A DNA stretch of 64,000 nucleotides from Rhodospirillales bacterium (GCA_028288725.1 JAQGIC010000072.1:1-64000); one strand, 5' to 3'; numbered from the stretch's first letter, positions 34 to 34,229 are shown. Numbers and translations are program-made. Notes: generated by a model from the letters alone, not told the origin.

Positions 34-1079
34 GCTCCGAAGGGCAGTTTGTGCGCCAACTCCATGTCATGCGCCAGCTTGGTCAGATCCGCCACGGTGT
101 CCGCCGGGAGGAGCAAGCCATCCGCGCGGTTGTGTGCGTCGTTTCGCGCCTCGATTTCGCCGGGATAGAATACTTCCTCGGAGCCGGCCGCCAATTTCAC
201 CCCCTTGAGACCCGCGATCATCGCTTCGATGCGGGTATTGAACTCGGTCAGCGACTGGAACGCCGCGACATTGAGGGCAATGAGCAGATGGCCGGCGCCG
301 CTGCGTTTGTCGGGCTGATACGGCCCCGCCACACCCGGCCCGAAGGCGCTGCCGGTGAGTATGCCCGACAGCACATCCATGATGACGGAGATCGCATATC
401 CCTTATGGCCGGCCATCGGCTGGATGATGCCTGACAGCGCCTCGGCCGGATCGGTCGTCGGTTCGCCTTGCGCATTGATGGCCCAGCCGGGCGGGATCGG
501 GACGCCGTTCTGCCGTGCGAGATAGATCTTGCCCCGCGCCACGCTCGTGTTCGCGATGTCGAGCACCATCGGTGCATGCCGCCCGGCCGGCGCTGCCCAT
601 GACCAGGGATTATTGCCGACCAGTTTCTCGCGGCCGCCCCACGGCGCCATCGCCGGGCTGGCATTGGTCGACAAGAACATGATGCAGCCTTCGGGCGGCG
701 CCATCAGCGTGTAGTACATCGCCGTGCCGAAATGATTGGAATTGCGCACGGCGACGGCGCCGATGCCATGGGCCTTGGCGCGCCGGATCACATCGCGCGC
801 CGCCTGGGCGGTCACGACCTGGCCCATGCCGTCATGGCCGTCGATCACGCCGACCGCGCCGACATCGACCAGCAGCTCCGGCGCTGCGACCGGCTTGGCC
901 GTGCCGGCCTTGAGCCGCGCCACATACCAGGGCAGGCGCATCAGCCCGTGCGACTGATGGCCCCACAGATCGGCCTGGACCAGCGTATCGGCTGCCAACC
1001 GCGCGTCGTCCGGCGGCATGCCGACCGTTTCATAGGCGGCCGTGGCGAAGCTCAGCAGCCGGTCGGGGGAGAGCGCCAT
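30..1079 (-). CDS. Ldh-family malate/L-lactate-type NAD(P)-dependent dehydrogenase
   Basis: 349 aa, the usual length for the malate/lactate/ureidoglycolate dehydrogenase superfamily (COG2055), whose members oxidise 2-hydroxyacids with NAD(P). Family landmarks are visible: an N-terminal helix with DLWGHQSHGLMRLPWYV, the central VRNSNHFGTAMYY motif carrying the conserved histidine, GNNPWSWAAP, and MAGHKGYAISVIMDVLSG near residue 220. The start overlaps the stop of the upstream hydratase gene (TGATG), so the two are translationally coupled and probably serve one catabolic route for a 2-keto or 2-hydroxy acid. The substrate cannot be read from sequence; lactate, malate, ureidoglycolate and sulfolactate are all possible in this family. 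Confidence 0.88.
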   Translation of the reverse strand: MALSPDRLLSFATAAYETVGMPPDDARLAADTLVQADLWGHQSHGLMRLPWYVARLKAGTAKPVAAPELLVDVGAVGVIDGHDGMGQVVTAQAARDVIRRAKAHGIGAVAVRNSNHFGTAMYYTLMAPPEGCIMFLSTNASPAMAPWGGREKLVGNNPWSWAAPAGRHAPMVLDIANTSVARGKIYLARQNGVPIPPGWAINAQGEPTTDPAEALSGIIQPMAGHKGYAISVIMDVLSGILTGSAFGPGVAGPYQPDKRSGAGHLLIALNVAAFQSLTEFNTRIEAMIAGLKGVKLAAGSEEVFYPGEIEARNDAHNRADGLLLPADTVADLTKLAHDMELAHKLPFGA

Positions 1080-1852
1080 CAGGCGACCTTGGTGCTGAAA
1101 CCGACCGCCCGCCCCAGATAGCGCGCCTCGATCGCCACGGCGCCCTCGATGGTGAACGGCTTGGTCACCGTGCCGGTCGAGATGATCGAACCCTTGGGCA
1201 GGATCATGCCGCGCTGGCGCGCCGTGGCGACGAAATCGACATACGCCCGGACCGGGTCGGTCGCATCCTCGCCGGAGAGCCCGCGGGCGCGTTCCTCGCC
1301 GTCGACCAGCACCACGGCCGAGGCCGCAAGAGCGGCGAGATCGTTGCCGTCGATCATGTCGCCGACGACCAGCGCCTCGAATGCCGCATTGTCGGCGGCG
1401 AAGCTGGGCCAGCCCACCGCCCGGCGATCGATGAAGCGGGAGCGGACCAGCTCGAACGTGACGCGGGTCTCGCCGATCGCGGCCATCGGATCGGACGCGG
1501 GCTCGCCCGGCAGAATATCGCGGCCCAGCACATAGGCGATTTCGAATTCGATGGTGACCGGTGCCAGGTCGGGCAGCGCGATCGTGTCGCCCGGCGCATG
1601 GCTGCGGCCGGCGAAAATGCGGCCGGCGATCGAGGCGCCCGCGCCGGTCTCGGCCCGCTGCTTCGGGCTGCCGACGCCCAGCTTCCAGCCGGCGATGGGC
1701 AGGCCCAGGCCGGCGATGAAGCGATCCTGGATATCGTAGCCGTCGGCGATGGTGGCCGGGCGGAGGTCCGCCGGCAGTGCGGTCGCTTGCTGGCCGCTCC
1801 GCCAGAGATCGGTCATCCAGGCGGCGGCGGCGTCGGCGGCGGCGAAAGCCAT
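1079..1852 (-). CDS. 2-keto-4-pentenoate hydratase / fumarylacetoacetase-like hydratase (MhpD type)
   Basis: 257 aa from ATG at 1852, chosen because AAGGAG lies 6 nt upstream; the open frame extends further but the added residues do not look like the family. The sequence follows the MhpD/HpcG pattern: GWKLGVGSPKQRA near residue 55, an IEFEIAYVLGRDIL segment with metal-binding acidic residues, and a C-terminal GSIISTGTVTKPFTIEGA stretch. These enzymes hydrate 2-hydroxypenta-2,4-dienoates in meta-cleavage pathways or act as related decarboxylases. The gene is coupled to the dehydrogenase gene downstream. No extradiol dioxygenase or aldolase is next to it, so the aromatic-pathway role is an inference. 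Confidence 0.82.
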   Translation of the reverse strand: MAFAAADAAAAWMTDLWRSGQQATALPADLRPATIADGYDIQDRFIAGLGLPIAGWKLGVGSPKQRAETGAGASIAGRIFAGRSHAPGDTIALPDLAPVTIEFEIAYVLGRDILPGEPASDPMAAIGETRVTFELVRSRFIDRRAVGWPSFAADNAAFEALVVGDMIDGNDLAALAASAVVLVDGEERARGLSGEDATDPVRAYVDFVATARQRGMILPKGSIISTGTVTKPFTIEGAVAIEARYLGRAVGFSTKVA

Positions 1853-1901
1853 GGTCGCTCCTTCGTTCGGCCTCCGGGAAGCGGAGGCGTTCGAAGCGAG
1901 C

Positions 1902-2096
1902 TTAAGCCTTCCAGCGGTTCGGCTGGAAGCCCAGAGGATGGCGTTCCTGGATGCGGTATAGCGGCACACCATGGGCGTCGAGCAGGCCGGTATGGATCGG
2001 CTCGATCGGGGTTTCGTGAACCGTGATGTTCATTTCGGCTTCATACAGGCTGTCCCCATAGGCGCGGGGGCGAATCGCGACGTATTTCTGGCTCAA
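1902..2096 (-). CDS. Small protein of unknown function, first gene of the hydratase/dehydrogenase cluster
   Basis: 64 aa if translated from TTG at 2096, which has GAAAGAGG about 8 nt upstream; an ATG further in would give only about 43 aa. I do not recognise the family. The composition is that of a real soluble protein (YVAIRPRAYGDSLYEAEMNI at the N-terminus, HPLGFQPNRW at the C-terminus) with no membrane segment or signal peptide. It lies 49 bp upstream of the hydratase gene on the same strand and probably shares its transcript. The frame has no alternative longer gene on either strand at this position. Confidence 0.55.
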   Translation of the reverse strand: MSQKYVAIRPRAYGDSLYEAEMNITVHETPIEPIHTGLLDAHGVPLYRIQERHPLGFQPNRWKA

Positions 2097-2254
2097 GGGT
2101 GGCCTCTTTCCGGTGCAGGGTCTGGACGAGCGGCACCCTAGCAAGCGGAATTGAAGAAAATATTAGCAGCCGGGCGAAGGTGCCGGCCCTTGCCCTCAAT
2201 TTGGGCAAATGGAATGCTGGTCCCGGGGGTGACAATGGGCGAGGGGCAGCGGGC

Positions 2255-5200
2255 ATGAGCGGACGGCAGCGGATCGTTCGCGAGCGGCGGCAGTACAACC
2301 AGTGGGTCGCCAACCAGACGCTCGAGGATTACGCGCTCCGCTTCACCGCGAAGAAGGCGCGGCGCTGGTCGTCGTTCCGGGTCGCCAACACGGCCGTGGG
2401 CGCCATCTCGTTCCTGGCGTGCGAGGCGATCGGCGGCAGTCTGACGCTCAACTACGGCTTCACCAACACGGCGGCCGCGATCCTGGCGGTCGGGCTGCTG
2501 ATCTTCGCGACCGGCCTGCCGATCTGCTACTACGCCATCCGCCATGGCATCGACGTCGATCTGCTGACCCGCGGCGCCGGGTTCGGCTATATCGGCTCGA
2601 CCATCACCTCGCTGATCTACGCCTCGTTCACCTTCATCCTGTTCGCGGTCGAGGCCGTGATCATGTCGACGGCGCTCGAGACCTGTTTCGGGATTCCGCA
2701 GCCGGTGGGCTATGTGCTGGCCTCGGTCGCGGTCATCCCGATCGTGGCCTATGGCATCCGGATGATCAGCCGATTGCAGGTCTGGACCCAGCCGATCTGG
2801 CTGTTCTTCCAGATCGTCCCGCTGATCGTGATCGCGGTCGGCCATCCGACCGAGGTCGGCAACTGGACCGATTATCGCGGGCTCCTGGGCAATGGCAGCG
2901 GCGATTTCGACCTGCTGCTGTTCGGCATCGCCGCTTCGATCCTGCTGTCGCTCATCCCGCAGATCGGCGAGCAGGTCGATTACCTGCGTTTCCTGCCCAG
3001 CCGCACGGCCGGCAACCGGCTCGGCTGGTGGACGGCCCTGATCATGGCGGGGCCCGGCTGGATCTTCATGGGGGCGGCCAAGCTGTTCGCCGGCTCGTTC
3101 CTGGCCGTGCTGGTGCTGCAGCATGGCGTGCCCTACATCCACGCGACCGAGCCGGCGGAGCTCTATTCGGTCGCGTTCCAATATCTGGCGCTGTCGCCCA
3201 AGGCGGCGCTGATCCTGACCGGCATCTTCGTCGTCACCTGCCAGATGAAGATCAATGTCACCAACGCCTATGCCGGCTCGATCGCCTGGTCGAACTTCTT
3301 CTCGCGCCTGACCCACAGCCATCCGGGCCGCGTCGTCTGGGTGCTGTTCAACATCATCCTGTCGCTGACCCTGATGAACCTGGGCATCTTTGGGGTGATC
3401 GAGCGGATCCTCGGGCTCTATTCCAATTTCGCCGTCGCCTGGCTGGGCGCCATCGTCGCCGATCTGATCGTCAACAAGCCGCTGGGCTTGAGCCCGCCGG
3501 GCATCGAGTTCAAACGGGCGCATCTCTACGACATCAACCCGGTCGGTGTCGGCGCCATGCTGCTGGCGGTGGTGGCCTCGACGCTCGCCTTTTTCGGCAG
3601 CTTCGGTGCCACGGCCCAGGCGTTCGCGCCCTTCATCAGCCTGACCGTCGCCTTCGTCGCGGCACCGCTGATCGCCTGGGGCACCCGGGGGAAATATTAC
3701 ATCGCGCGGGCGCCCCAGATCGGCCTGGAGCCGGGCGCGGAAGTGCGCTGCTCGATCTGCGAGAACGTGTTCGAGCGCGAGGACATGGCCTATTGCCCGG
3801 CCTATGGCGGCGCCATCTGTTCGCTGTGCTGCACGCTCGACGCGCGCTGCCACGACAGCTGCAAGGAGGAGGCCCGGTTCGTCGAGCAGATCATGGCGCT
3901 GCTGCGCCGGCTGCTGCCGGCGCGGCTGGCGCTCGGCCTCAATTCCCGTATCGGCCATTTCATCGGCGTGCTGATCCTGTTCGCGCTCGTCATCGGCGGC
4001 GCGCTGACCTTCATCTATTACCTGGACGCGGTCGGACCGGCCTCCGACAAGGCGCTGATCGCCCGGACCCTGTGGCTGGTGTTCTTCAGCCTGCTGATCG
4101 TGTCCGGCGTCGCGGCCTGGCTCCTGGTGCTGGCGCACGAGAGCCGGCGCAAGGCCGAAGAGGAGTCCGACCGGCAGACCCATATGCTGATGCGCGAGAT
4201 CGAGGCGCACGAACGAACCGATCTGGAGCTGCAAAAGGCCAAGGAAGTGGCCGAGGCCGCCAATTTCGCCAAGAGCCGCTACGTCATCGGCATCAGCCAC
4301 GAGATCCGCGCGCCGCTGAACGCGATCTTCGGCTATGCCCAGCTGATGGAGCGGGACGGGGCGGCGGCGCCTTTGCGCCAGAACGCGATCCGCGTGATCC
4401 GGCGCAGTGCCGAGCATCTGTCGAACCTGATCGACGGGCTGCTCGACATCTCGAAGATCGAGGCCGGCCGCTTCATGCTCTATCGCGACCGGGTGCGCAT
4501 CCACGAGTTCCTCGACCAGATCGTCGACATGTTCCGCCTGCAGGCGCAGGCGCAAGGCATCGCATTCTATTACGAACAGCCGGATTGCCTGCCGCCTTAC
4601 GTCTATACCGACGAGAAGCGGCTGCGGCAGATCCTGATCAATCTCTTGTCGAACGCGGTGAAATATACCGAGCGCGGCCATGCGGCGCTGCGCATCTTCT
4701 ATCGCAGCCAGGTTGCCGAGTTCGAGATCGAGGATAGCGGCATCGGCATTCCCGAGGACGATATCGAACGCATCTTCGAACCGTTCGAGCGCGGCCAGAT
4801 GCCGAACGCGCGGACCGTGCCGGGCACCGGCCTCGGCCTCACCATCACCAAGCTGCTGACCGAGATGATGGGCGGCGCCATCTCGGTCGAGAGCGTGCCC
4901 GGCCAGGGCAGCGTCTTCCGCATCAAACTGTTTCTGTCCGAGGCGCCGGCACCCGATGCCCCGCCGGCGCCCCAGGCGCGCATCTCGGGCTATCGCGGCC
5001 GGCGCATCAAGGTGCTGATCGCCGACGACGACGCGGCGCATCTGGAACTGGTGCACGAGCTGCTGACGCCGCTGGGCTTCCTGATGTTCAGCGCGTCGGA
5101 CGGGCTGACCTGCCTGTCGCTGGCCGAGGAATGCCAGCCGGATCTGGTGCTGCTCGATATCTCGATGCCCGGGCTCGACGGCTGGAGCGTGGCGCGGCGC

Positions 5201-5626
5201 CTGCGCGAAGCGGGCCACACCGCGGCGCGCATCGTCATGATCTCGGCCAATGTCGATGAATTCCGCACGCGGCGCGAGGCGGAGCCGGCGCATGACGATT
5301 ACCTGATCAAGCCGATCGACGTGCAGCGGCTGATCGATCGCATCCAGGTGCTGCTCGGTCTCGACTGGATCGCGCAGGGCCAGGAAGAGGTGGCGCCGCC
5401 GCAGCCGCCGGCGGCGGCCCAGGCCGTTCCCGGCCGCCGCCATCTGGATGAACTGCACCAATTGGGACGGATCGGGTATATCAGGGGCATCGAGGCGAAA
5501 CTGGGCGAGATCGCGGCCGAAGCGCCGACGCTTGTCCCGTTCGCCGATCGGCTGGGCGAGATCGTCCGGCGCTTCGATCTCAAGCAATATATGAACATCC
5601 TCGAGGAGCTGCGCGCCGATGAGTGA
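2255..5626 (+). CDS. NCS1-permease-fused hybrid sensor histidine kinase/response regulator
   Basis: 1123 aa from ATG at 2255 (GAGGGG about 8 nt upstream); the frame is open from 2099 but the extra residues are not conserved-looking. Domain order: an NCS1 (purine/cytosine permease-like) membrane domain of roughly residues 30-490 with about 12 hydrophobic segments; a cysteine cluster at about 499-535 (CSIC, CPAYGGAICSLCC, CHDSC) resembling a zinc-binding module; two further membrane segments; HisKA with phospho-acceptor His682 in SHEIRAPLNAI; HATPase_c with LLSNAVKYTERG, DSGIGIPEDD and GTGLGLTITK; a REC domain with Asp968 in LLDISMPGLDG; and a tail of about 90 residues. The transporter domain probably works as a sensor for a nucleobase- or urea-like solute. 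It overlaps the response regulator gene by 8 nt. The ligand is unknown. Confidence 0.88.
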   Translation: MSGRQRIVRERRQYNQWVANQTLEDYALRFTAKKARRWSSFRVANTAVGAISFLACEAIGGSLTLNYGFTNTAAAILAVGLLIFATGLPICYYAIRHGIDVDLLTRGAGFGYIGSTITSLIYASFTFILFAVEAVIMSTALETCFGIPQPVGYVLASVAVIPIVAYGIRMISRLQVWTQPIWLFFQIVPLIVIAVGHPTEVGNWTDYRGLLGNGSGDFDLLLFGIAASILLSLIPQIGEQVDYLRFLPSRTAGNRLGWWTALIMAGPGWIFMGAAKLFAGSFLAVLVLQHGVPYIHATEPAELYSVAFQYLALSPKAALILTGIFVVTCQMKINVTNAYAGSIAWSNFFSRLTHSHPGRVVWVLFNIILSLTLMNLGIFGVIERILGLYSNFAVAWLGAIVADLIVNKPLGLSPPGIEFKRAHLYDINPVGVGAMLLAVVASTLAFFGSFGATAQAFAPFISLTVAFVAAPLIAWGTRGKYYIARAPQIGLEPGAEVRCSICENVFEREDMAYCPAYGGAICSLCCTLDARCHDSCKEEARFVEQIMALLRRLLPARLALGLNSRIGHFIGVLILFALVIGGALTFIYYLDAVGPASDKALIARTLWLVFFSLLIVSGVAAWLLVLAHESRRKAEEESDRQTHMLMREIEAHERTDLELQKAKEVAEAANFAKSRYVIGISHEIRAPLNAIFGYAQLMERDGAAAPLRQNAIRVIRRSAEHLSNLIDGLLDISKIEAGRFMLYRDRVRIHEFLDQIVDMFRLQAQAQGIAFYYEQPDCLPPYVYTDEKRLRQILINLLSNAVKYTERGHAALRIFYRSQVAEFEIEDSGIGIPEDDIERIFEPFERGQMPNARTVPGTGLGLTITKLLTEMMGGAISVESVPGQGSVFRIKLFLSEAPAPDAPPAPQARISGYRGRRIKVLIADDDAAHLELVHELLTPLGFLMFSASDGLTCLSLAEECQPDLVLLDISMPGLDGWSVARRLREAGHTAARIVMISANVDEFRTRREAEPAHDDYLIKPIDVQRLIDRIQVLLGLDWIAQGQEEVAPPQPPAAAQAVPGRRHLDELHQLGRIGYIRGIEAKLGEIAAEAPTLVPFADRLGEIVRRFDLKQYMNILEELRADE

Positions 5627-6527
5627 GCAGGGTATCCGGCGGGACATCGTCCTGATCGTGGATGATTCGCCGGAGACGCTGAGCTTTCTGACCGACGCGC
5701 TGGATCAATCGGGTCTGACCGTGCTGGTCGCGGTCGACGGCGCCGGCGCCTTGGAACTGTTGGACCAGATCACGCCGGATCTGGTGCTGATGGACGCGAT
5801 CATGCCGGGCATGGACGGGTTCGAATGCTGCCGCCGGCTGAAACGCCTCGGCCATCTGGCCCATGTGCCGGTCATCTTCATGACGGGCCTCAGCGAAACC
5901 GAGCATGTGGTCAAAGGGCTCGACGCCGGCGGGGTCGATTACGTGACCAAGCCGATCGTGGCCGAGGAGCTGATGGCGCGGATGCGCGTGCATCTGGCCA
6001 ATTCGCGCCTGACCCTGAGCGCGCGCATCGCGCTCGATGCGACCGGACGGTTCCTGCTGGCGATGGATCGCCAGGGCCGGCTGCTGTGGGCGACGCCCCA
6101 GGCGGCGTCGCTGCTGGCCGCCTCGTTCGACGGGTTCGAGGCCGAACGTTTCGCGCTGGCGCCCGAACTGGCCGAGCGGCTGGGCAACGCCCAGGACGGC
6201 CGGCTGGCGCTGGCGGGCGGCCGCCGGCGGCTGGAGCTGACCTATCTCAGCCGAACCGGGCCCGACGAGGTGCTGCTGCGCCTGACCGAGGTCGAGGAGG
6301 GCGGCGACGAGGGCTTCCTGAAGCAGCAGCTGGCGCTGACCGCGCGCGAGGCGGAGGTGCTCGTCTGGCTGGCGCGCGGCAAACCCAACCGCGATATCAG
6401 CGAGATCCTGGGCATCAGTCCGCGCACGGTGAACAAGCACCTGGAACAGATCTTTTCCAAGCTGGGCGTCGAGAACCGCGCCTCGGCCACGGCGCTGGCG
6501 GTGCGGGCCCTGGGGCAGCGGGGGTAG
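5619..6527 (+). CDS. Response regulator, REC plus LuxR-type HTH
   Basis: 302 aa. The N-terminal receiver has DDSPETLSFL and a phospho-acceptor Asp59 in LVLMDAIMPGMDGFECC, then the conserved Thr (FMTGLSE) and Lys (VTKPI). A middle region (about 130-225) resembles a divergent PAS-like segment (GRFLLAMDRQGRLLWATPQA). The C-terminus is a LuxR/GerE helix-turn-helix (LTAREAEVLVWLARGKPNRD, then TVNKHLEQIFSKLGV). It overlaps the kinase gene by 8 nt and is almost certainly its cognate regulator. Targets are unknown; the urea transporter genes 5 kb downstream are a reasonable guess. Confidence 0.93.
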   Translation: MSEQGIRRDIVLIVDDSPETLSFLTDALDQSGLTVLVAVDGAGALELLDQITPDLVLMDAIMPGMDGFECCRRLKRLGHLAHVPVIFMTGLSETEHVVKGLDAGGVDYVTKPIVAEELMARMRVHLANSRLTLSARIALDATGRFLLAMDRQGRLLWATPQAASLLAASFDGFEAERFALAPELAERLGNAQDGRLALAGGRRRLELTYLSRTGPDEVLLRLTEVEEGGDEGFLKQQLALTAREAEVLVWLARGKPNRDISEILGISPRTVNKHLEQIFSKLGVENRASATALAVRALGQRG

Positions 6528-6653
6528 GGTCGGAGGCCCGAGAAGCTGCACAAGTACAATTTCCAGACGCACAGGTGGACCTTCGACGATGCGCCGGCGG
6601 ACAGACCACAGATCCTGAAATGACCGTCCTGGGCCGCCGGTCGGGCTTCCTTC

Positions 6654-8189
6654 CTATGGCTTCGACAATCGGCGCACGGGCTCTATGGCGCTGTCATCGC
6701 CCAGTGCTACGGCTTGCCGATACAGTTCCAAGGCCTTGGCCGGCTCGCCACGGTTGCCGATTATACCCATATGATCCAGCACCAGCGGGTCATAAGTCCA
6801 GGCGACGGCGGTCATGGCCCTGGCGCTGCCGGCGCGAGCCGCTTGGACGTAGAAGAGGCGCGCCGATGCAAAATCGCCCGTTCGCAACAAGACGTTTCCC
6901 CGCTCGATGATGGCCTCAATCTCAATCTTCGACAGCGTGGTCGCCGGGCCGGGCGGCAGCGGCGATACCGCCTGCGTTGGCCGGGGCGTCGCCGATGGTG
7001 CCGCGAGCACCGGCTTGGGTTCCGGCTCGATCGTTGGTGCCGCGGCAGTTGCGGGTTCGACCGGGGACGGGATGGGCGGCGTTGCCGGCACCGGCTCGCC
7101 TTCGACGGCTGCGCTCGGCATTGGGATTGCGTCTTCCACGGGGTCAACAGGCTCGGGAGGGCGCTCGGCAGCGGATGGTTTCGATGGCTCGACCGGGCTT
7201 TGCGCCGGAGGGGCGGCCGCCGTCGTGGATGGGTCGGCCACGGCCGAGATCAGAATCGGGGCAAGTGATCGCCCCAGGCCCGACATGGCTAAGGTGCCGC
7301 CGGTCACCAACACGGCAAGTGCTGCCATCCCCGCGCCGAGGCGCCAGCGCGAGGACGAGCCTCGTCGATGTCCGTGCGGGCGGGCGGGCGGCACCAACGG
7401 CTTCGTGTCGCCTTCCGAGGAAATCAGGGGTGCTGCGGACGGGTCCCGATCCAGATGGGCGCCATCCAGGCGCCCGACTCGCAGAAATTCGTCCCTGGCC
7501 AGCCCCAGCATTCGCCGCGGATTTCCCCCCGCCGCCGCGGTGATCTGCCTCATGATCTCGTTGGTCAGCACTTCGGGCGGGGGCACCGCGGCGCACGAGG
7601 CGCGATAGCGCAGAAATGGGGCCACCGCCTCGTCCGGCCAGGGGGAAAGCCGCAGCACGACCGGCGCACTCCAATTGTTATGAAGTCGGCTAACCTCGAT
7701 CAGCATTCCCAGGTCGATGCCGCCGGTCATTAGGATGCGATGGCTGGGGATTGTCTGTTCATACCCGTTCGAGATTGCCACGAGCTGTTCCAGAAAGCGC
7801 GGCGCTACCGCGTCGGCATGCTCGACGATCAGCAGGTTGTCGCTGGGGCGGCGTTCCGTCTCGGCGCTTTTCGATCGCGCGACGATACCTCTCCAGCTTC
7901 CCGGATCGAAATCCCGGCGGCAGACGTCAACGACCTGTTTCAAATCGAGTTTTGGATGGCCTTCGAGCCAGGCCACATGGTAGCGGCCTTGCATACGGCG
8001 CGCCGCTTGCCGAACCAGCTCGGTCTTTCCGCCACCGCTGGCTCCCAATAGAAATGTCGGGCTGCCCATATCGATTGCGAGAATGATATCGAATAGTATC
8101 TCTTCCAGAAATGGCGCCCCATAGAACCAACCAGCCAGGGCCTCTGCCTTTGGTCGAGCCTTATCCGCCATCACTCCGATCATCGTCAT
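6654..8189 (-). CDS. ExeA-like AAA ATPase with one membrane segment and a periplasmic Sel1/TPR-like domain
   Basis: 511 aa from ATG at 8189, chosen because a run of seven G lies just upstream; the frame stays open to 8264. Domain order: AAA ATPase with Walker A GASGGGKT (49-56) and a variant Walker B LLIVEHAD (about 119-126), an ExeA/TniB-like arrangement; a C-terminal lid with GGNPRRMLGLA; one membrane segment (about 282-303); a 100-residue proline/alanine-rich linker; and a terminal TPR/Sel1-like repeat domain (420-510, with GNVLLRTGDFASARLFYVQA). By topology the ATPase is cytoplasmic and the repeat domain periplasmic. It is divergent from the TAXI gene. GspA/ExeA help assemble secretins, but no secretion genes are present here, so the role is unknown. 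Confidence 0.8.
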   Translation of the reverse strand: MTMIGVMADKARPKAEALAGWFYGAPFLEEILFDIILAIDMGSPTFLLGASGGGKTELVRQAARRMQGRYHVAWLEGHPKLDLKQVVDVCRRDFDPGSWRGIVARSKSAETERRPSDNLLIVEHADAVAPRFLEQLVAISNGYEQTIPSHRILMTGGIDLGMLIEVSRLHNNWSAPVVLRLSPWPDEAVAPFLRYRASCAAVPPPEVLTNEIMRQITAAAGGNPRRMLGLARDEFLRVGRLDGAHLDRDPSAAPLISSEGDTKPLVPPARPHGHRRGSSSRWRLGAGMAALAVLVTGGTLAMSGLGRSLAPILISAVADPSTTAAAPPAQSPVEPSKPSAAERPPEPVDPVEDAIPMPSAAVEGEPVPATPPIPSPVEPATAAAPTIEPEPKPVLAAPSATPRPTQAVSPLPPGPATTLSKIEIEAIIERGNVLLRTGDFASARLFYVQAARAGSARAMTAVAWTYDPLVLDHMGIIGNRGEPAKALELYRQAVALGDDSAIEPVRRLSKP

Positions 8190-8385
8190 ATCCCCCCCAA
8201 CCATAGGATGGAATGCATCTTGGCGGAGCCGAGAGATCTGGAATCGTGCCGCTTCGCCGATCATAAAAATACGGCTGGGTGATTATTATTAGATCACTTA
8301 TGCTGAGTTTCGGCAAATATATATAGAACCTTAGAGCGCATGGAATCCGTTCCCATTGCGTTCCGTCGTACAGATGGAGGTTCTA
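8190..8385. promoter_or_regulatory. AT-rich divergent promoter region between the AAA ATPase and TAXI genes
   Basis: 196 bp between the two divergent starts, clearly more AT-rich than the surroundings (8265-8335). It contains an inverted repeat GTGAT-N9-ATCAC at 8279-8297 and a TATATA-rich stretch at 8317-8325 that could be a -10 region for the TAXI gene. No convincing -35 hexamer was found. The palindrome could be an operator serving both genes. Confidence 0.4.
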
Positions 8386-9519
8386 TTGAAGAAAAATATG
8401 AACTTGATACTGTCTGTGGTGGTGATGATTTGTGGGATATCGGCACCACTTGCACGCGTTTATGCCGACGATCCGAACTCAAGCGCGCGGTTGCTGGCCA
8501 AACAGGGCGGCGTCGGCATCGTCGCAGGCGGAATAGACGGCACTTACTTGAGGATAGCGGCGGATCTTGCCGCGGTTCTGGATGGCGACAGCCAACTGCG
8601 GGTTCTCCCGATGATCGGCAAGGGCTCGGTGCAGAACCTGTTCGATCTCCGCTATCTGCGGAATGTGGATATCGCGATCGTCCAGTCCGATGCCTTGGCG
8701 TTCATTCGCCAGGATCCATCGACAGCCGACGTCTCCAACTACGTTCGTTATGTGACCAAGCTGTACAACGAAGAATTTCAGATCCTGGCATCGAAGGACA
8801 TTCAATCTTTAGCCGATCTACGCGGCAAGAAAGTCAACACCGACGTCGTCGGCAGCGGCACGGGAATGACCGCGAACATCGTCTTCCGCAAGCTCGAAAT
8901 TCCGATTGTGGAACAGCATCTGAACCAGGCCGACGCCATTCAGGCCCTCAAGTCCGGAGACGTCGCCGCCGTTGTTTTCGTCGCGGGCAAGCCGGTCAAG
9001 CTGTTCTCTTCTATCGATGGCGCCAGCGGCATGCATTTCCTGAGCGTGCCACCTACGCCCAACTTGCTCGCGACCTACCTGCCGGCCCAATTGTCTCACG
9101 ACGATTATCCGCAACTCATCCCAAATGGCGCCTCGATAGACACGGTTGCCGTCGGTGCCGTCATGGCGATCTACAACCTGAGTCCCGGCACCACGCGCTA
9201 TCGCCAGGCTGCGGCGTTCGTCGAAGCGTTCTTCGGCAAGTTCAATAAATTTCTTGAGCCGCAACGCCACCCGAAGTGGCACGAGGTCAGCCTCGCGGCC
9301 GACCTGCCCGGTTGGAAGCGCTTCCAACCCGCGGGCGACTGGCTGGCTCAGCATTCGAACAGCGCGGAAAGCGCCAACGACGGGGTGCGCGAGGCATTCG
9401 AAATCTATCTCAATGAGCAGGCGATCAAAGAAAAAGGCCCCCCGCTGACCAGCGAAGAAAAGGCGGCTCTCTACGCGAGCTTCCGGAAGTGGAAGAGGGA
9501 GACTGCAGCGGCCCGCTGA
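8386..9519 (+). CDS. TAXI-family TRAP-type periplasmic solute-binding protein
   Basis: 377 aa if it starts at TTG 8386, which has GGAGG 5 nt upstream and gives a standard signal peptide (KKN basic start, hydrophobic core, cleavage near VYA-DD). The mature protein has the TAXI pattern GIVAGGIDGTYLRIAADLA, then GKGSVQNLFDL and DIAIVQSDALAF, and an SLADLRGKKVNTDVVGSGTG segment. A lysine/glutamate-rich C-terminal extension (about residues 330-377) goes beyond the minimal fold. Classical TAXI proteins feed a DctM-type TRAP permease; none is present in this window. The divergent AAA ATPase gene is the obvious candidate partner. The ligand is unknown. Confidence 0.88.
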   Translation: MKKNMNLILSVVVMICGISAPLARVYADDPNSSARLLAKQGGVGIVAGGIDGTYLRIAADLAAVLDGDSQLRVLPMIGKGSVQNLFDLRYLRNVDIAIVQSDALAFIRQDPSTADVSNYVRYVTKLYNEEFQILASKDIQSLADLRGKKVNTDVVGSGTGMTANIVFRKLEIPIVEQHLNQADAIQALKSGDVAAVVFVAGKPVKLFSSIDGASGMHFLSVPPTPNLLATYLPAQLSHDDYPQLIPNGASIDTVAVGAVMAIYNLSPGTTRYRQAAAFVEAFFGKFNKFLEPQRHPKWHEVSLAADLPGWKRFQPAGDWLAQHSNSAESANDGVREAFEIYLNEQAIKEKGPPLTSEEKAALYASFRKWKRETAAAR

Positions 9520-9788
9520 GGATGATGGATTGTCCCGCTGATTGACCATATCCCGGCGAGGGGGGTACCGACCGGTGGGTGTTTTTACAGACGGGGAGTC
9601 AGCCCTGGTGACATGGGGAAGTGTTCCATCTCGATCGCCGTCACCACTACGGTGTCCCAAGGGTCACCACTACGGTGTCCCAAGGCAACAATACTTCGTT
9701 CGTGACGTCCAAAAGAAGCGCATGTCGGAACTCCTGCGGAAGCGAGCCCACGGCACCAGGGACAAAATCGCCTAGGGTCCCGAACCGG
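9520..9788. other. Intergenic region with a 23-bp tandem direct repeat
   Basis: 269 bp between the convergent TAXI and ArsB-like genes. It holds two tandem copies of a unit starting TCACCACTACGGTGTCCCAA at 9641-9662 and 9664-9685, exactly 23 bp apart. No convincing coding sequence or hairpin terminator was found. The repeat could be a slippage product or the scar of a lost mobile element. Confidence 0.55.
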
Positions 9789-30501: not shown

Positions 30502-30817
30502 GGGCGAGGGTCCGTTCCGGCTGCGGCAATGGGGCGAGCCTAAGGCGGCTTGGTTAATGCCCGGCTAAGGCCTTCGGCGACGCGAATCGAATAGAACCGC
30601 CAAGCAACCTTCGCGGGTGACGATTGACGCCACGCCCGCTGCACGCTAGCATATCCGGCATACCGGAGTTATGTCCGATATTTCGGACACCAAGGCCTGG
30701 CAGCATGTTCGCGAGCACATGACCCGCAAAGGGGCAGGGCCAACATCAAATCCGGTTTCGTCCGCATCTTCCCTGCGCAGAACCAAGGCCGAGAGGTCGA
30801 CAGCGGAGGGATGGATC
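30502..30817 (+). promoter_or_regulatory. Promoter region of the lactonase gene
   Basis: 316 bp without a gene. A sigma-70-like promoter TTGACG (30624-30629), 17-bp spacer, TAGCAT (30647-30652) predicts transcription starting near 30659, inside the double palindrome described separately. A GGAGGG ribosome-binding site lies at 30805-30810 directly before the lactonase start. The remaining leader of about 130 nt shows no other strong structure. Confidence 0.5.
30653..30690 (+). promoter_or_regulatory. Double palindromic operator upstream of the lactonase gene
   Basis: Two inverted repeats with centres exactly 20 bp apart: TCCGG-CATA-CCGGA (30654-30667) and TGTCCGA-TATT-TCGGACA (30672-30689). 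They lie at or just after the predicted transcription start, which would suit repression. A 38-bp segment here matches the minus strand of 34101-34138 at 31 of 38 positions by manual alignment, upstream of the FAD oxidase gene. Confidence 0.7.
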
Positions 30818-32059
30818 ATGACCAAGAACACTCGAAACGACTCGGTGCTCAAAGGTTTCTCGCGTCGCGAACTGATCGCCGGCGCGGCGGCGGTGACGGC
30901 GGCGAGCCTGGCGCCGAAGACATTGTATGCGGCTGCGGCCGCACCGCAGCTCTACGGCGGCGGCGTGCTGGCCTATGCCGGCTGTTATACGCCCAACGGC
31001 GGCGGCATCTACCTGTTCAACGTCAACCTCCGGACCGGGGGCCTGACACAGCTGAAACTGTTCGCCGGTATCGCCAACCCGTCCTGGATCAGTTTCGATC
31101 TCAGCCGCCGGTATCTTTATGCCGCCAACGAGATCGCCAATTTCAACGGGACGACCAGCGGCTCGGTCAGCGCCTTTCGCATCGATCGCCAGAATGGCGA
31201 TCTGACGCCGCTGAATGCGGTGAGCTCCCAGGGGGCCTCGCCGGTCCATCTCAACCCGCACCCGTCGGGTAAATTCCTGTTCGTCGCGAACTACGGCGGC
31301 GGCTCGATCGCGGTGCTGCCGATCCGGTCCGACGGCAGTCTGGGAGCGGCGACCGACGTCAAGCTCGACAGCGGCAATATCGGGCCGACGACGCCGACCG
31401 GCGCGCCGCCGGGCAGTTTCGCCGACAGCGGCCATGATGCGCCCCATGCCCACTTCATCCATAGCGATCCCTCGGGCCAGTTCGTGCTGCACGTCGATCT
31501 GGGACAGGACCGGATCTATTCCTGGCGCTTCAACGAGGCGGCCGGCACCCTGTCGCCGGCCGCGGTGCCCTTCACCAGCCTGCCGCCCGGCGCCGGCCCG
31601 CGCCATCTGGCGTTTCATCCCAATGGCCGCCAGGTCTATGTCCTGACCGAGGAAAGCTCGACCCTGTCCGCCTATGGCTATAACGGCCGCACGGGCGCCC
31701 TGACCCCGCTGCAGACCGTATCGGCGTTGCCGTCCGGCTTCGTCGGCACCAGCTATGGCTCGGAAGTCGGTCTGTCGGCCGATGGCCGCTTTCTCTATGC
31801 CGCCAACCGTCTCCACGACAGCATCGCCACGTTCGCCATCGACGCGGGCGGGGGCCTGACCCTGGTCGGCCATACCCAGACCGAAGGCGACTATCCGCGC
31901 AGCTTCGCGATCGACCCGACCGGCCATTTCTTCTACGCGACGAACCAGCGCAGCGACGCGATCACCATCTTCCGGCTCGACCCCGAGACCGGCAGGCCCG
32001 TGTTCACCGGTCAATATGTTCCGGTCGGCAGCCCGGCGCGGCTGGCCTTTCTGATCTAG
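30818..32059 (+). CDS. Lactonase family protein (6-phosphogluconolactonase-like beta-propeller), Tat-exported
   Basis: 413 aa from ATG at 30818 (GGAGGG upstream). The N-terminus has a twin-arginine signal, SRRELIAGAAAVTAAS, with an AAA-type cleavage region. The rest is a seven-bladed propeller of the COG2706/YbhE lactonase family: YAGCYTPNGGGIYLFNVN, LSRRYLYAANEIANF, NPHPSGKFLFVANYGGGSI, DAPHAHFIHSDPSGQFV and RHLAFHPNGRQVYVLTEES. It probably hydrolyses sugar lactones in the periplasm. The convergent FAD oxidase gene shares its operator, which suggests they act on the same substrate. Confidence 0.88.
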   Translation: MTKNTRNDSVLKGFSRRELIAGAAAVTAASLAPKTLYAAAAAPQLYGGGVLAYAGCYTPNGGGIYLFNVNLRTGGLTQLKLFAGIANPSWISFDLSRRYLYAANEIANFNGTTSGSVSAFRIDRQNGDLTPLNAVSSQGASPVHLNPHPSGKFLFVANYGGGSIAVLPIRSDGSLGAATDVKLDSGNIGPTTPTGAPPGSFADSGHDAPHAHFIHSDPSGQFVLHVDLGQDRIYSWRFNEAAGTLSPAAVPFTSLPPGAGPRHLAFHPNGRQVYVLTEESSTLSAYGYNGRTGALTPLQTVSALPSGFVGTSYGSEVGLSADGRFLYAANRLHDSIATFAIDAGGGLTLVGHTQTEGDYPRSFAIDPTGHFFYATNQRSDAITIFRLDPETGRPVFTGQYVPVGSPARLAFLI

Positions 32060-32172
32060 AGCCTGATCCGATCAAACCGGCTCGGTTTGATCGGTGAATC
32101 AGTCTCTAAATATATGATTTAGAGGGCGATTCAGACATGAGGTCGGTCCGACCTCATGTCATCGCGCTCTAG
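32056..32172. repeat. CTAG-bounded palindromic repeat, family B
   Basis: 117 bp with inverted ends CTAGAGC (32056) and GCTCTAG (32172). Inside are three hairpins: GATCAAACCG-GCT-CGGTTTGATC, TCTAAAT-N4-ATTTAGA, and GACATGAGGTCGG-TCCGACCTCATGTC. The left CTAG contains the TAG stop of the lactonase gene. It fills the gap between convergent genes and could act as a bidirectional terminator. Confidence 0.85.
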
Positions 32173-32211
32173 GACAAGGCGCGGGCGACCAAGTCGCCCG
32201 CGCTTCCCCCG

Positions 32212-33885
32212 TCAGGCCACCGGGATGGATTGGCTGTGATGGAAGCGGTTGTTCGGGTCCCAGGCGTGTTTGGCTTGGATCAGCCGGGGCAGGTTGCCGC
32301 CGTAATAAAGCCGAAGCGCCGTCGATGGCCCCGCTCGGTTGAGATCGACGTCCGGATAGTTCACGTAACAGCCGTCGACATTGTTGGTCGGGTCCCTGGC
32401 GGGATCGGGGATGCCGCCATAGGCGCCGTACATCTCGCCATAGAAGTCGCGGATCCAGGCGATGTGATTGTCGCCATTGGCGCTCGGGCCCTCGGTCTGG
32501 TCCTGCCAATAGGTCTGGTATTGCAGCTTGAAGATCGAGCTGCGCTGCCACACCGCCGTCGCCGTGGGCGCCACGGCATTGATCTGGCCGGCGTAGCTAT
32601 CGACCTGAACCAGCGAGGCGGAAAGGTCGACCGCCTTGCCGGATCCGTCGGTGCGGGTCTGGGTCAGGTATTTGTAGATCGTCTGGATCTGGGCCGCCGG
32701 AAAGCCGGCGCGCATGTAGGCGGACTTGTACTTGCCTTTCTGATTGTCGCCGGAGCCGTTCAGGTCCTGCACGACTTCCCACCAGCGATAGTTGACATAG
32801 GCCTCGGAACTGGGCGCCGCGACCGGATGGCCGATGACCGCACCCCGGGGCGCCACGACGTTGGCGACGCCGTGTTTCGCCAGCAGGCCGTTCACCTGGG
32901 GCATGACCGTGCTCGATCCGATCGGGCCGTCGTAGTTGGCCTGGACGATGATCTTCACCTGTCCGGCGCTAGCGTGGTTGAGCTTCAGCAGGCCGAAGAT
33001 GCTGTTGCCGCCGTTCCGTGTCAGATCCTCGAAGAACGTGAGAATGCCGCCCAGATAGGAGGCGCCGCCGCCGGCGATGATGTCGGTCCAGTTCCAGGCC
33101 AGCACGATCAGTTCGGCGTTCTGCGGTGCTGTCGGCAGGGTCTGGAATTCATAGCGGGTGATGATGCCGAAATTGCCGCCGCCGCCGCCGGTATGTGCCC
33201 AATAGAGCAGCTGATCATTGGGATCGGTCGATTTATTCGTGACCTGATTGAGCTGGACCTTGTCGCCCTGGCCGACGGTCGCGACCGTCACCCCGGTCAG
33301 CCAGTCGACCGTCAGGCCGAAGGCGCGGGACATCAGCCCGTAGCCGCCGCCGCAGATATGGCCGCCGAGGCCGACCGAGTAGCAGGAGCCGGCCGGCAGG
33401 GTCTTGCCGAATTGCCAGTAGAGGTGCCGATAGAGATCCCAGGTCGTCCCGCCGGCCTGAGCGAAATAGCAGCCGCGGGCCTGGTCATAGCCGATGGCAT
33501 TCAGCAGGCTGACGTCGATGATCGCCCGCGTGTCGGCGTTGAAGACGAAATCCTCGTAGCAATGCCCGCCGCCGCGCACGCGGAAGTTCTGCGCCCAGCC
33601 GCCGCCGATCACATTGGCGAGCGCTTCGGCCGCGCCATGTTCGGTCAAAGGCACGAAGACGACCGCGGCATTGGGCGCGGTCCAGCGGCGGTTGAACCCC
33701 TGGGTGAGGCCGCGGAACTGCGGGCTCGACGGGTTGAGGATCAAGAGATCCGTCCCGGCCGAGCCGCCTGCCGCCGCGACGAGTTCGGCCTTGGCCTGTG
33801 CCTGCGACTTGCCGCTGAGGGCCAGCAGCCCGGCCATGGTGCCGGCGCCCGCAGCACCGGCTTTCAGGAAATGACGTCGTTCCAT
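32212..33885 (-). CDS. Berberine-bridge-type FAD-linked oxidase, bicovalent flavin, Tat-exported
   Basis: 557 aa from ATG at 33885 with a strong AGGAGG 7 nt upstream. A twin-arginine-like signal (MERRHFLKAGAAGAGTMAGL) precedes an FAD_binding_4 domain. RGGGHCYED places the 8-alpha-histidyl ligand at about His108, and PAGSCYSVGLGGHICGGGYG carries the cysteine (about 168) of the bicovalent flavin seen in berberine bridge and glucooligosaccharide oxidases. The C-terminus has the BBE motif (YVNYPDVDL, then YYGGNLPRLIQAKHAWDPNN). Known relatives oxidise sugars to lactones or modify alkaloids. The shared operator with the lactonase gene favours a sugar substrate. Confidence 0.88.
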   Translation of the reverse strand: MERRHFLKAGAAGAGTMAGLLALSGKSQAQAKAELVAAAGGSAGTDLLILNPSSPQFRGLTQGFNRRWTAPNAAVVFVPLTEHGAAEALANVIGGGWAQNFRVRGGGHCYEDFVFNADTRAIIDVSLLNAIGYDQARGCYFAQAGGTTWDLYRHLYWQFGKTLPAGSCYSVGLGGHICGGGYGLMSRAFGLTVDWLTGVTVATVGQGDKVQLNQVTNKSTDPNDQLLYWAHTGGGGGNFGIITRYEFQTLPTAPQNAELIVLAWNWTDIIAGGGASYLGGILTFFEDLTRNGGNSIFGLLKLNHASAGQVKIIVQANYDGPIGSSTVMPQVNGLLAKHGVANVVAPRGAVIGHPVAAPSSEAYVNYRWWEVVQDLNGSGDNQKGKYKSAYMRAGFPAAQIQTIYKYLTQTRTDGSGKAVDLSASLVQVDSYAGQINAVAPTATAVWQRSSIFKLQYQTYWQDQTEGPSANGDNHIAWIRDFYGEMYGAYGGIPDPARDPTNNVDGCYVNYPDVDLNRAGPSTALRLYYGGNLPRLIQAKHAWDPNNRFHHSQSIPVA

Positions 33886-34229
33886 CTTGTTTCCTCCTGT
33901 GACGAAGCCTCCTTTCCGCACCCTCTAGAGCTGCGGATGTCCGAACGTTCCAGGCAAGCGGGTTCGACAACCCTAGAGAGATTTCTCTCGATTGGTGGGA
34001 AGCGATAAATGCAAGACCGGGCCCTCGGCGCGGGTCATTGCATCGGATAGATTCGGACGATCGGCCAAACGCTATCGGTTCGGCCAAAGCAACGACCGTG
34101 TGTCCGGTATATCGGACTTAAATCCTGTATAGCGGATGACAGAGAGGTTAAGCGCGACACCTGAAGGTTGCAACAACTTTTGGCGGTCGACCGTCTATCC
34201 CGCTTTACGCCGTTCCGCGCGCGCACGCG
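33886..34229. other. Intergenic region upstream of the FAD oxidase gene
   Basis: 344 bp without an intact gene. It holds the AGGAGG ribosome-binding site of the oxidase (about 33892-33897) and the double palindrome at 34101-34138. No clear sigma-70 hexamers were recognised for the minus strand. The leader from the palindrome to the start is about 215 nt, longer than for the lactonase gene. Confidence 0.5.
34101..34138 (-). promoter_or_regulatory. Double palindromic operator upstream of the FAD oxidase gene
   Basis: Read on the minus strand: a distal imperfect palindrome TCCGCTATACAGGA (34123-34136) and a proximal one GTCCGATATACCGGAC (34102-34117), centres 20 bp apart. The order, spacing and sequence match the site upstream of the lactonase gene (30653-30690), including a longer GTCC/GGAC arm on the gene-proximal palindrome in both. 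Confidence 0.7.

Follow-up and report, generated by a model that had tools for sequence, protein, structure and literature searches.

A double palindrome shared by an oxidase gene, a lactonase gene and an iclR locus in a Rhodospirillales bacterium points to an IclR regulon, possibly for N-acetylhexosamines

The DNA stretch analysed here (the window) comprises 64,000 nucleotides of a Rhodospirillales bacterium (GCA_028288725.1 JAQGIC010000072.1:1-64000). It carries two convergent genes, one for an exported lactonase and one for an exported oxidase of the berberine bridge enzyme (BBE) type, and both are preceded by the same 38-bp double palindrome. The relevant features of the window are the following, with twin-arginine translocation abbreviated as Tat.

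30624..30652, plus strand: sigma-70-like promoter of the lactonase gene, TTGACG-N17-TAGCAT, a sequence match
30654..30687, plus strand: double-palindrome operator core of the lactonase gene, distal palindrome 30654-30667, proximal palindrome 30674-30687
30818..32059, plus strand: exported 7-bladed beta-propeller lactonase (PF10282) with Tat-type N-terminus, closest solved relative PpgL (6igb)
32212..33885, minus strand: exported BBE-type flavin adenine dinucleotide (FAD) oxidase with Tat signal, closest solved relative N-acetyl-D-hexosamine oxidase (7zzk)
34103..34136, minus strand: double-palindrome operator core of the oxidase gene

The lactonase matched the 7-bladed beta-propeller lactonase profile PF10282 (E 1.3e-109), and its best solved relative was the periplasmic gluconolactonase PpgL of Pseudomonas aeruginosa (6igb, E 4e-53). 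An ATG at 30671 falls inside the operator; comparison with the orthologue in a same-genus relative (G001) indicates that ATG 30818 is likely the true start, so that the operator precedes the start codon by about 130 bp. The oxidase, with its start codon at 33885, contains the domains PF01565 (FAD_binding_4) and PF08031 (BBE). Its motifs GGHC and GGHICGGG align with His64 and Cys123, the FAD-anchoring residues of the Ralstonia solanacearum N-acetyl-D-hexosamine oxidase (7zzk, A3RXB7). The substrate-domain motifs of this enzyme are conserved as well, and it was the best solved relative with E 7e-103 (next best 4e-74). Tat-like signals had been assigned to both proteins in an earlier reading of the window made from the sequence only (the sequence-only reading). 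They were found again as SRREL in the lactonase, in common with the G001 orthologue, and as RRHFLK in the oxidase, where TIGR01409 scored above its cut-off; the Tat profile PF10518 scored just under its own.

Realignment of the segments 30653-30690 (plus strand) and 34101-34138 (minus strand) yielded 31 identical positions out of 38. Each segment contains two TCCG-N6-CGGA-type palindromes, exactly 20 bp from centre to centre, and their order is equal relative to each gene, all in agreement with the sequence-only reading. A 36-bp pattern drawn from both segments occurred in the window at these two places only and in none of 100 shuffles, while a loose 16-base pattern with three mismatches allowed was uninformative, with about 100 places that were mostly chance matches. 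The promoter proposed by the same reading was recovered at 30624-30652; its -10 hexamer ends at 30652, 1 bp short of the operator core (30654). One such match is expected by chance per region of this size; the lactonase site of G001 is preceded by TTGACG-N17-TACCAT at the same distance.

A genome-wide search with the consensus pattern and up to 3 mismatches, in which opposite-strand readings of one site were counted once, covered the genome of the window (G000; 5.5 Mb, 146 contigs, 99.66% complete) and that of G001 (7.4 Mb). Exactly three double-palindrome sites were present in each genome and they occupied orthologous positions, which argues against a dispersed repeat. The oxidase and lactonase sites are kept in G001 as a convergent pair, so that the conservation on which the sequence-only reading had made its operator depend was observed. 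Its alternative of a repeat in place of an operator, as well as a chance origin, were rejected on the basis of three sites per genome, all of them beside genes, and the absence of matches in shuffled sequence. The regulator gene bearing the same site, which that reading had proposed to look for in the complete genome, proved to be an iclR gene on another contig. The features of this locus, with ABC for ATP-binding cassette and PLP for pyridoxal 5'-phosphate, are:

G000:C72:9812-9847 and G001:C3:268889-268924: third operator, between the divergent iclR and the ABC-deacylase-PLP operon
G000:C72:9895-10674: iclR, outside the window (locus L039)
G000:C72, about 985-9763: ABC-deacylase-PLP operon, outside the window (locus L039)

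The regulator carries an IclR-type helix-turn-helix (HTH) domain (PF09339, E 2.9e-13) and a C-terminal ligand domain (PF01614, E 5.1e-19), and is 88% identical between G000 and G001. The G001 protein has an N-terminal repeat, three times AAGEQ (L040 10126-10260), which is not found in the G000 copy. The transport functions encoded in the operon opposite iclR are a family-5 substrate-binding protein, permeases and oligopeptide-type ATPases; its enzymes are a D-aminoacylase-like amidohydrolase (89% identical between the two genomes) and a fold-III PLP enzyme in which Ala_racemase_N and D-ser_dehydrat domains were recognised. Another ABC set of the dipeptide type is located after iclR, and a CHAP-domain protein of the peptidase/amidase type closes the ABC-deacylase gene run (L039 162-842). 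Thus, the shared operator of the two-gene sugar-oxidation regulon suggested earlier stands, but not its two-gene extent, since iclR and a D-amino-acid-type operon share the site.

The operator was detected in 2 of 61 relatives, G000 and G001, and an IclR orthologue at E <=1e-35 in the same two only. A phylum-wide sample of 398 genomes contained IclR homologues (E <=1e-59) in 19 further genomes; G305 was found separately. A symmetric weight matrix, built from the six G000 and G001 sites only and run on the iclR loci with 1.5 kb on either side, revealed the double palindrome with equal spacing beside iclR in G676 (23.3 bits), G410 (30.2), G655 (33.3), G530 (37.1) and G602 (25.8), while the best score in shuffled iclR loci (30 each) was at most 11.4 bits. 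With wider flanks, and with the matrix extended by these first five homologue sites, a site was found at the head of an ABC-iclR run in G667. Wider flanks also showed a weaker site (14 of 16 key positions) heading an ABC-RidA-iclR run in G305. The sites of these two genomes lie further upstream than the other iclR sites, at the operon head. In total, seven divergent Pseudomonadota genomes have an equally spaced double site next to iclR or at the head of its operon. When eight homologue genomes were scanned in full, five of them (3.6-7.8 Mb each) contained a single site, in every case at the iclR locus. Within 1.5 kb of the more distant IclR homologues (L135-L145), no clear double site was seen.

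The phyletic match, the autoregulatory position and the uniqueness of the site within genomes indicate that IclR is very probably the regulator acting on the 38-bp operator. A regulator gene may itself be under the control of another regulator, and the pairing of IclR with the site rests on sequence. A different protein that binds the double palindrome and controls iclR too is nevertheless most improbable, given that the site stands at the IclR locus in seven divergent genomes, as the sole genomic copy in five of them, and that IclR and operator co-occur among the relatives. The finding assigns regulator and operator to a group of IclR proteins across Pseudomonadota. Like PcaR/PobR, BhcR, BlcR and IclR, the protein combines IclR HTH and ligand domains, and its gene diverges from a catabolic operon, the site lying between the two. 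It differs from these catabolic regulators in its paired TCCG-N6-CGGA palindromes 20 bp apart and in its three targets, which include an exported oxidase and an exported lactonase. It scored far under every cut-off of the named NCBIfam subfamilies, the best being PcaR/PcaU/PobR (75.7 of 284.75 bits) and BhcR (65.6 of 350). The open-access literature searched contained no report of an IclR protein with paired palindromes or with an N-acyl-D-amino-acid deacylase.

As operator of the IclR protein encoded at G000:C72:9895-10674, the element would control iclR together with the divergent operon, the oxidase gene and the lactonase gene. Regulators of the IclR family usually bind palindromic operators as dimers of dimers and are released by a small molecule, and the paired palindromes at iclR in nine genomes would agree with this. 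Here each palindrome probably accommodates one dimer of a dimer of dimers, the two lying two turns apart on one face of the DNA. The lactonase operator directly follows the -10 hexamer and covers the likely transcription start, which suggests repression by blocked initiation until a catabolite releases IclR, as in IclR and AllR. A similar arrangement of -10 and operator was readable by eye in G305 and G469. The sign of control, the oligomer and the ligand are all inferred, and activation by an IclR-family protein is possible, as exemplified by BhcR (PMC11323563).

The Ralstonia N-acetyl-D-hexosamine oxidase converts N-acetylglucosamine (GlcNAc) and N-acetylgalactosamine (GalNAc) at C1 to the lactone, with a Km of about 0.3 mM versus about 216 mM for glucose, and the cellular role of the enzyme was given as unclear (PMC9299179). 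In Ralstonia, Paraburkholderia and Achromobacter an oxidase gene adjoins a lactonase gene. The oxidase of the window resembles the Ralstonia enzyme in the His and Cys for bicovalent FAD attachment, in the substrate-domain motifs and in the company of a lactonase gene. It differs in belonging to another clade and in its Tat signal, which has no evident counterpart in the reading frames from Ralstonia and Variovorax. The lactonase, unlike its relative PpgL, is paired with an oxidase under one operator. With 7zzk and PpgL as closest solved relatives, oxidase and lactonase are likely a sugar-oxidation pair, as the sequence-only reading had held; as substrates, N-acetylhexosamines are more probable than glucose or the other free aldoses which that reading had in view. 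Periplasmic oxidation of a plain aldose or an oligosaccharide, with the D-amino-acid operon serving another need, would agree with the hexose and oligosaccharide oxidases among BBE enzymes and with PpgL being a gluconolactonase. We regard it as improbable, as the Km of the closest solved oxidase is about a thousand times lower for N-acetylated sugars than for glucose and as an aldose route leaves the operator shared with deacylase and PLP genes unexplained.

Seven Variovorax loci contain oxidase and lactonase genes followed by genes for a D-aminoacylase and a PLP enzyme resembling D-serine dehydratase; where the flanks were long enough, dipeptide ABC genes and a second lactonase gene were present as well. 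The Variovorax cluster (L103, L107, L114, L116) therefore assembles in one place the same set of enzyme families and argues, independently of IclR, for one pathway. It differs in having an oxidase of the Ralstonia clade and an RpiR/HexR-like regulator, profiled in one locus, instead of IclR. In the oxidase tree, the enzyme of the window grouped with full support with a Xanthobacteraceae metagenome-assembled genome and with Bacteroidota, apart from the Ralstonia/Variovorax clade; this enzyme combination may therefore have two separate origins.

A single chemistry could connect these proteins, since a C1-oxidised N-acetylhexosamine is formally an N-acetyl-D-alpha-amino acid. The oxidase would convert GlcNAc or GalNAc to the lactone and the lactonase would open it to N-acetyl-hexosaminate, which the dipeptide-type ABC transporter would import. 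The amidohydrolase would then remove the acetyl group and the PLP enzyme eliminate ammonia from the product or cleave it. A precedent is the ong pathway of Pseudoalteromonas prydzensis, in which the D-aminoacylase-like OngB deacetylates the aldonate GlcNAc1A and OngC, similar to D-serine and D-threonine deaminases, makes 2-keto-3-deoxygluconate (KDG) (PMC9537276; PMC12017989). Enzymes of the D-aminoacylase-like class of OngB and, putatively, of the OngC class stand here under the shared operator. The ong cluster (OngB, OngC, KdgK) has in common with the present system the enzyme class for deacetylation, putatively that for deamination, and the D-amino-acid-like logic. It differs in an aldonate derived from lytic polysaccharide monooxygenase (LPMO), in transport by sodium-solute symporter (SSS) and TonB systems and in the RpiR-type regulator OngR, whereas the present system has oxidase and lactonase, a dipeptide-type ABC transporter and IclR, with neither an RpiR-type OngR nor an SSS transporter in the cluster. 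The amidohydrolase has Ser292 of OngB (PpOngB numbering; YPYPAGSST versus YPYAASSST), a position held by Thr in D-aminoacylases (PMC12017989). The closest solved relative of the PLP enzyme is the D-threonine aldolase 4v15, so that splitting into glycine and a tetrose would be as plausible as deamination to KDG.

Several observations weigh against this pathway. The amidohydrolase lacks Gln298 (PpOngB numbering), with Leu in the ungapped register and a Gln two residues earlier, and its insertion is about 50 residues longer. The Variovorax enzyme has D-aminoacylase-type residues at the OngB signature positions. The oxidase lies outside the clade of characterised HexNAc oxidases (Ralstonia/Variovorax). 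The gene nagA of the ordinary GlcNAc route was found in G000 and G001, and its absence had to be discarded as an argument for an alternative route. Finally, the IclR clade elsewhere sits with D-amino-acid genes and without the oxidase. Its loci contain RidA, amino-acid ABC, major facilitator superfamily (MFS) or SSS transporters, D-serine-deaminase-like PLP enzymes and D-aminoacylases, the last in G469 (733 bits against the G000 protein), G410 and G655. RidA and the transporters were identified by eye from N-terminal sequence, the other neighbours by phmmer against G000 proteins. The conserved company of the clade is D-amino-acid or N-acyl-D-amino-acid catabolism. The oxidase was detected at E 1e-30 in none of 12 IclR-homologue genomes, a set that included no positive control, by a query that does detect G000 and G001; oxidase and lactonase therefore look like genus-level additions to a D-amino-acid-type regulon.

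The same observations bear on a further explanation, in which IclR governs the same regulon for the catabolism of an N-acyl-D-amino acid or a D-amino-acid peptide, and oxidase and lactonase are merely co-induced for an unrelated, co-released sugar. The company of the clade, the peptide type of the transporter and the missing Gln298 would all fit. We consider it unlikely, though less so than the oxidation of a plain aldose, because the oxidase and lactonase genes of Variovorax provide an independent case of clustering with D-aminoacylase and D-serine-dehydratase-like genes, and because one chemistry links all steps. The IclR regulon with an N-acetylhexosamine pathway is, with moderate confidence, the best explanation, while the complete route from N-acetylhexosamine through D-amino-acid-type steps, for which the substrate is deduced from relatives, is about evenly balanced. 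Tentatively, it would be an LPMO-independent amino-sugar route that arose when two genes acquired operator copies of an IclR regulator of D-amino-acid catabolism, the regulon growing from one site to three through operators gained before new genes. If the substrate is correct, HexNAc-type BBE oxidases would obtain a physiological role and sugar oxidation would be tied to D-amino-acid catabolism.

In G655, an ong-like cluster adjoins iclR and the operator (L152 14233-15762 and neighbours), with an RpiR-type regulator, RidA, an SSS transporter and a deacylase that retains both OngB signature residues, Ser292 and Gln298; the IclR homologue may help to control a GlcNAc1A pathway in this genome. 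The Protein Data Bank entries 9g5m and 9gv8, named 'amidohydrolase family protein', show the OngB signature SSS...Q and may represent an enzyme of the GlcNAc1A-deacetylase type. In the gap between the convergent lactonase and oxidase genes (window 32056-32175) lies an interspersed repeat, about 117 bp long and built of inverted repeats, of which about 40 near-full copies were scored in this genome at 87-100% identity. In G001 (L041 6658-8469), a gene for a substrate-binding-protein-like product and an ABATE/CGNR zinc-finger gene, both missing at the matching place in the window, lie between a glyoxalase gene and the oxidase gene.

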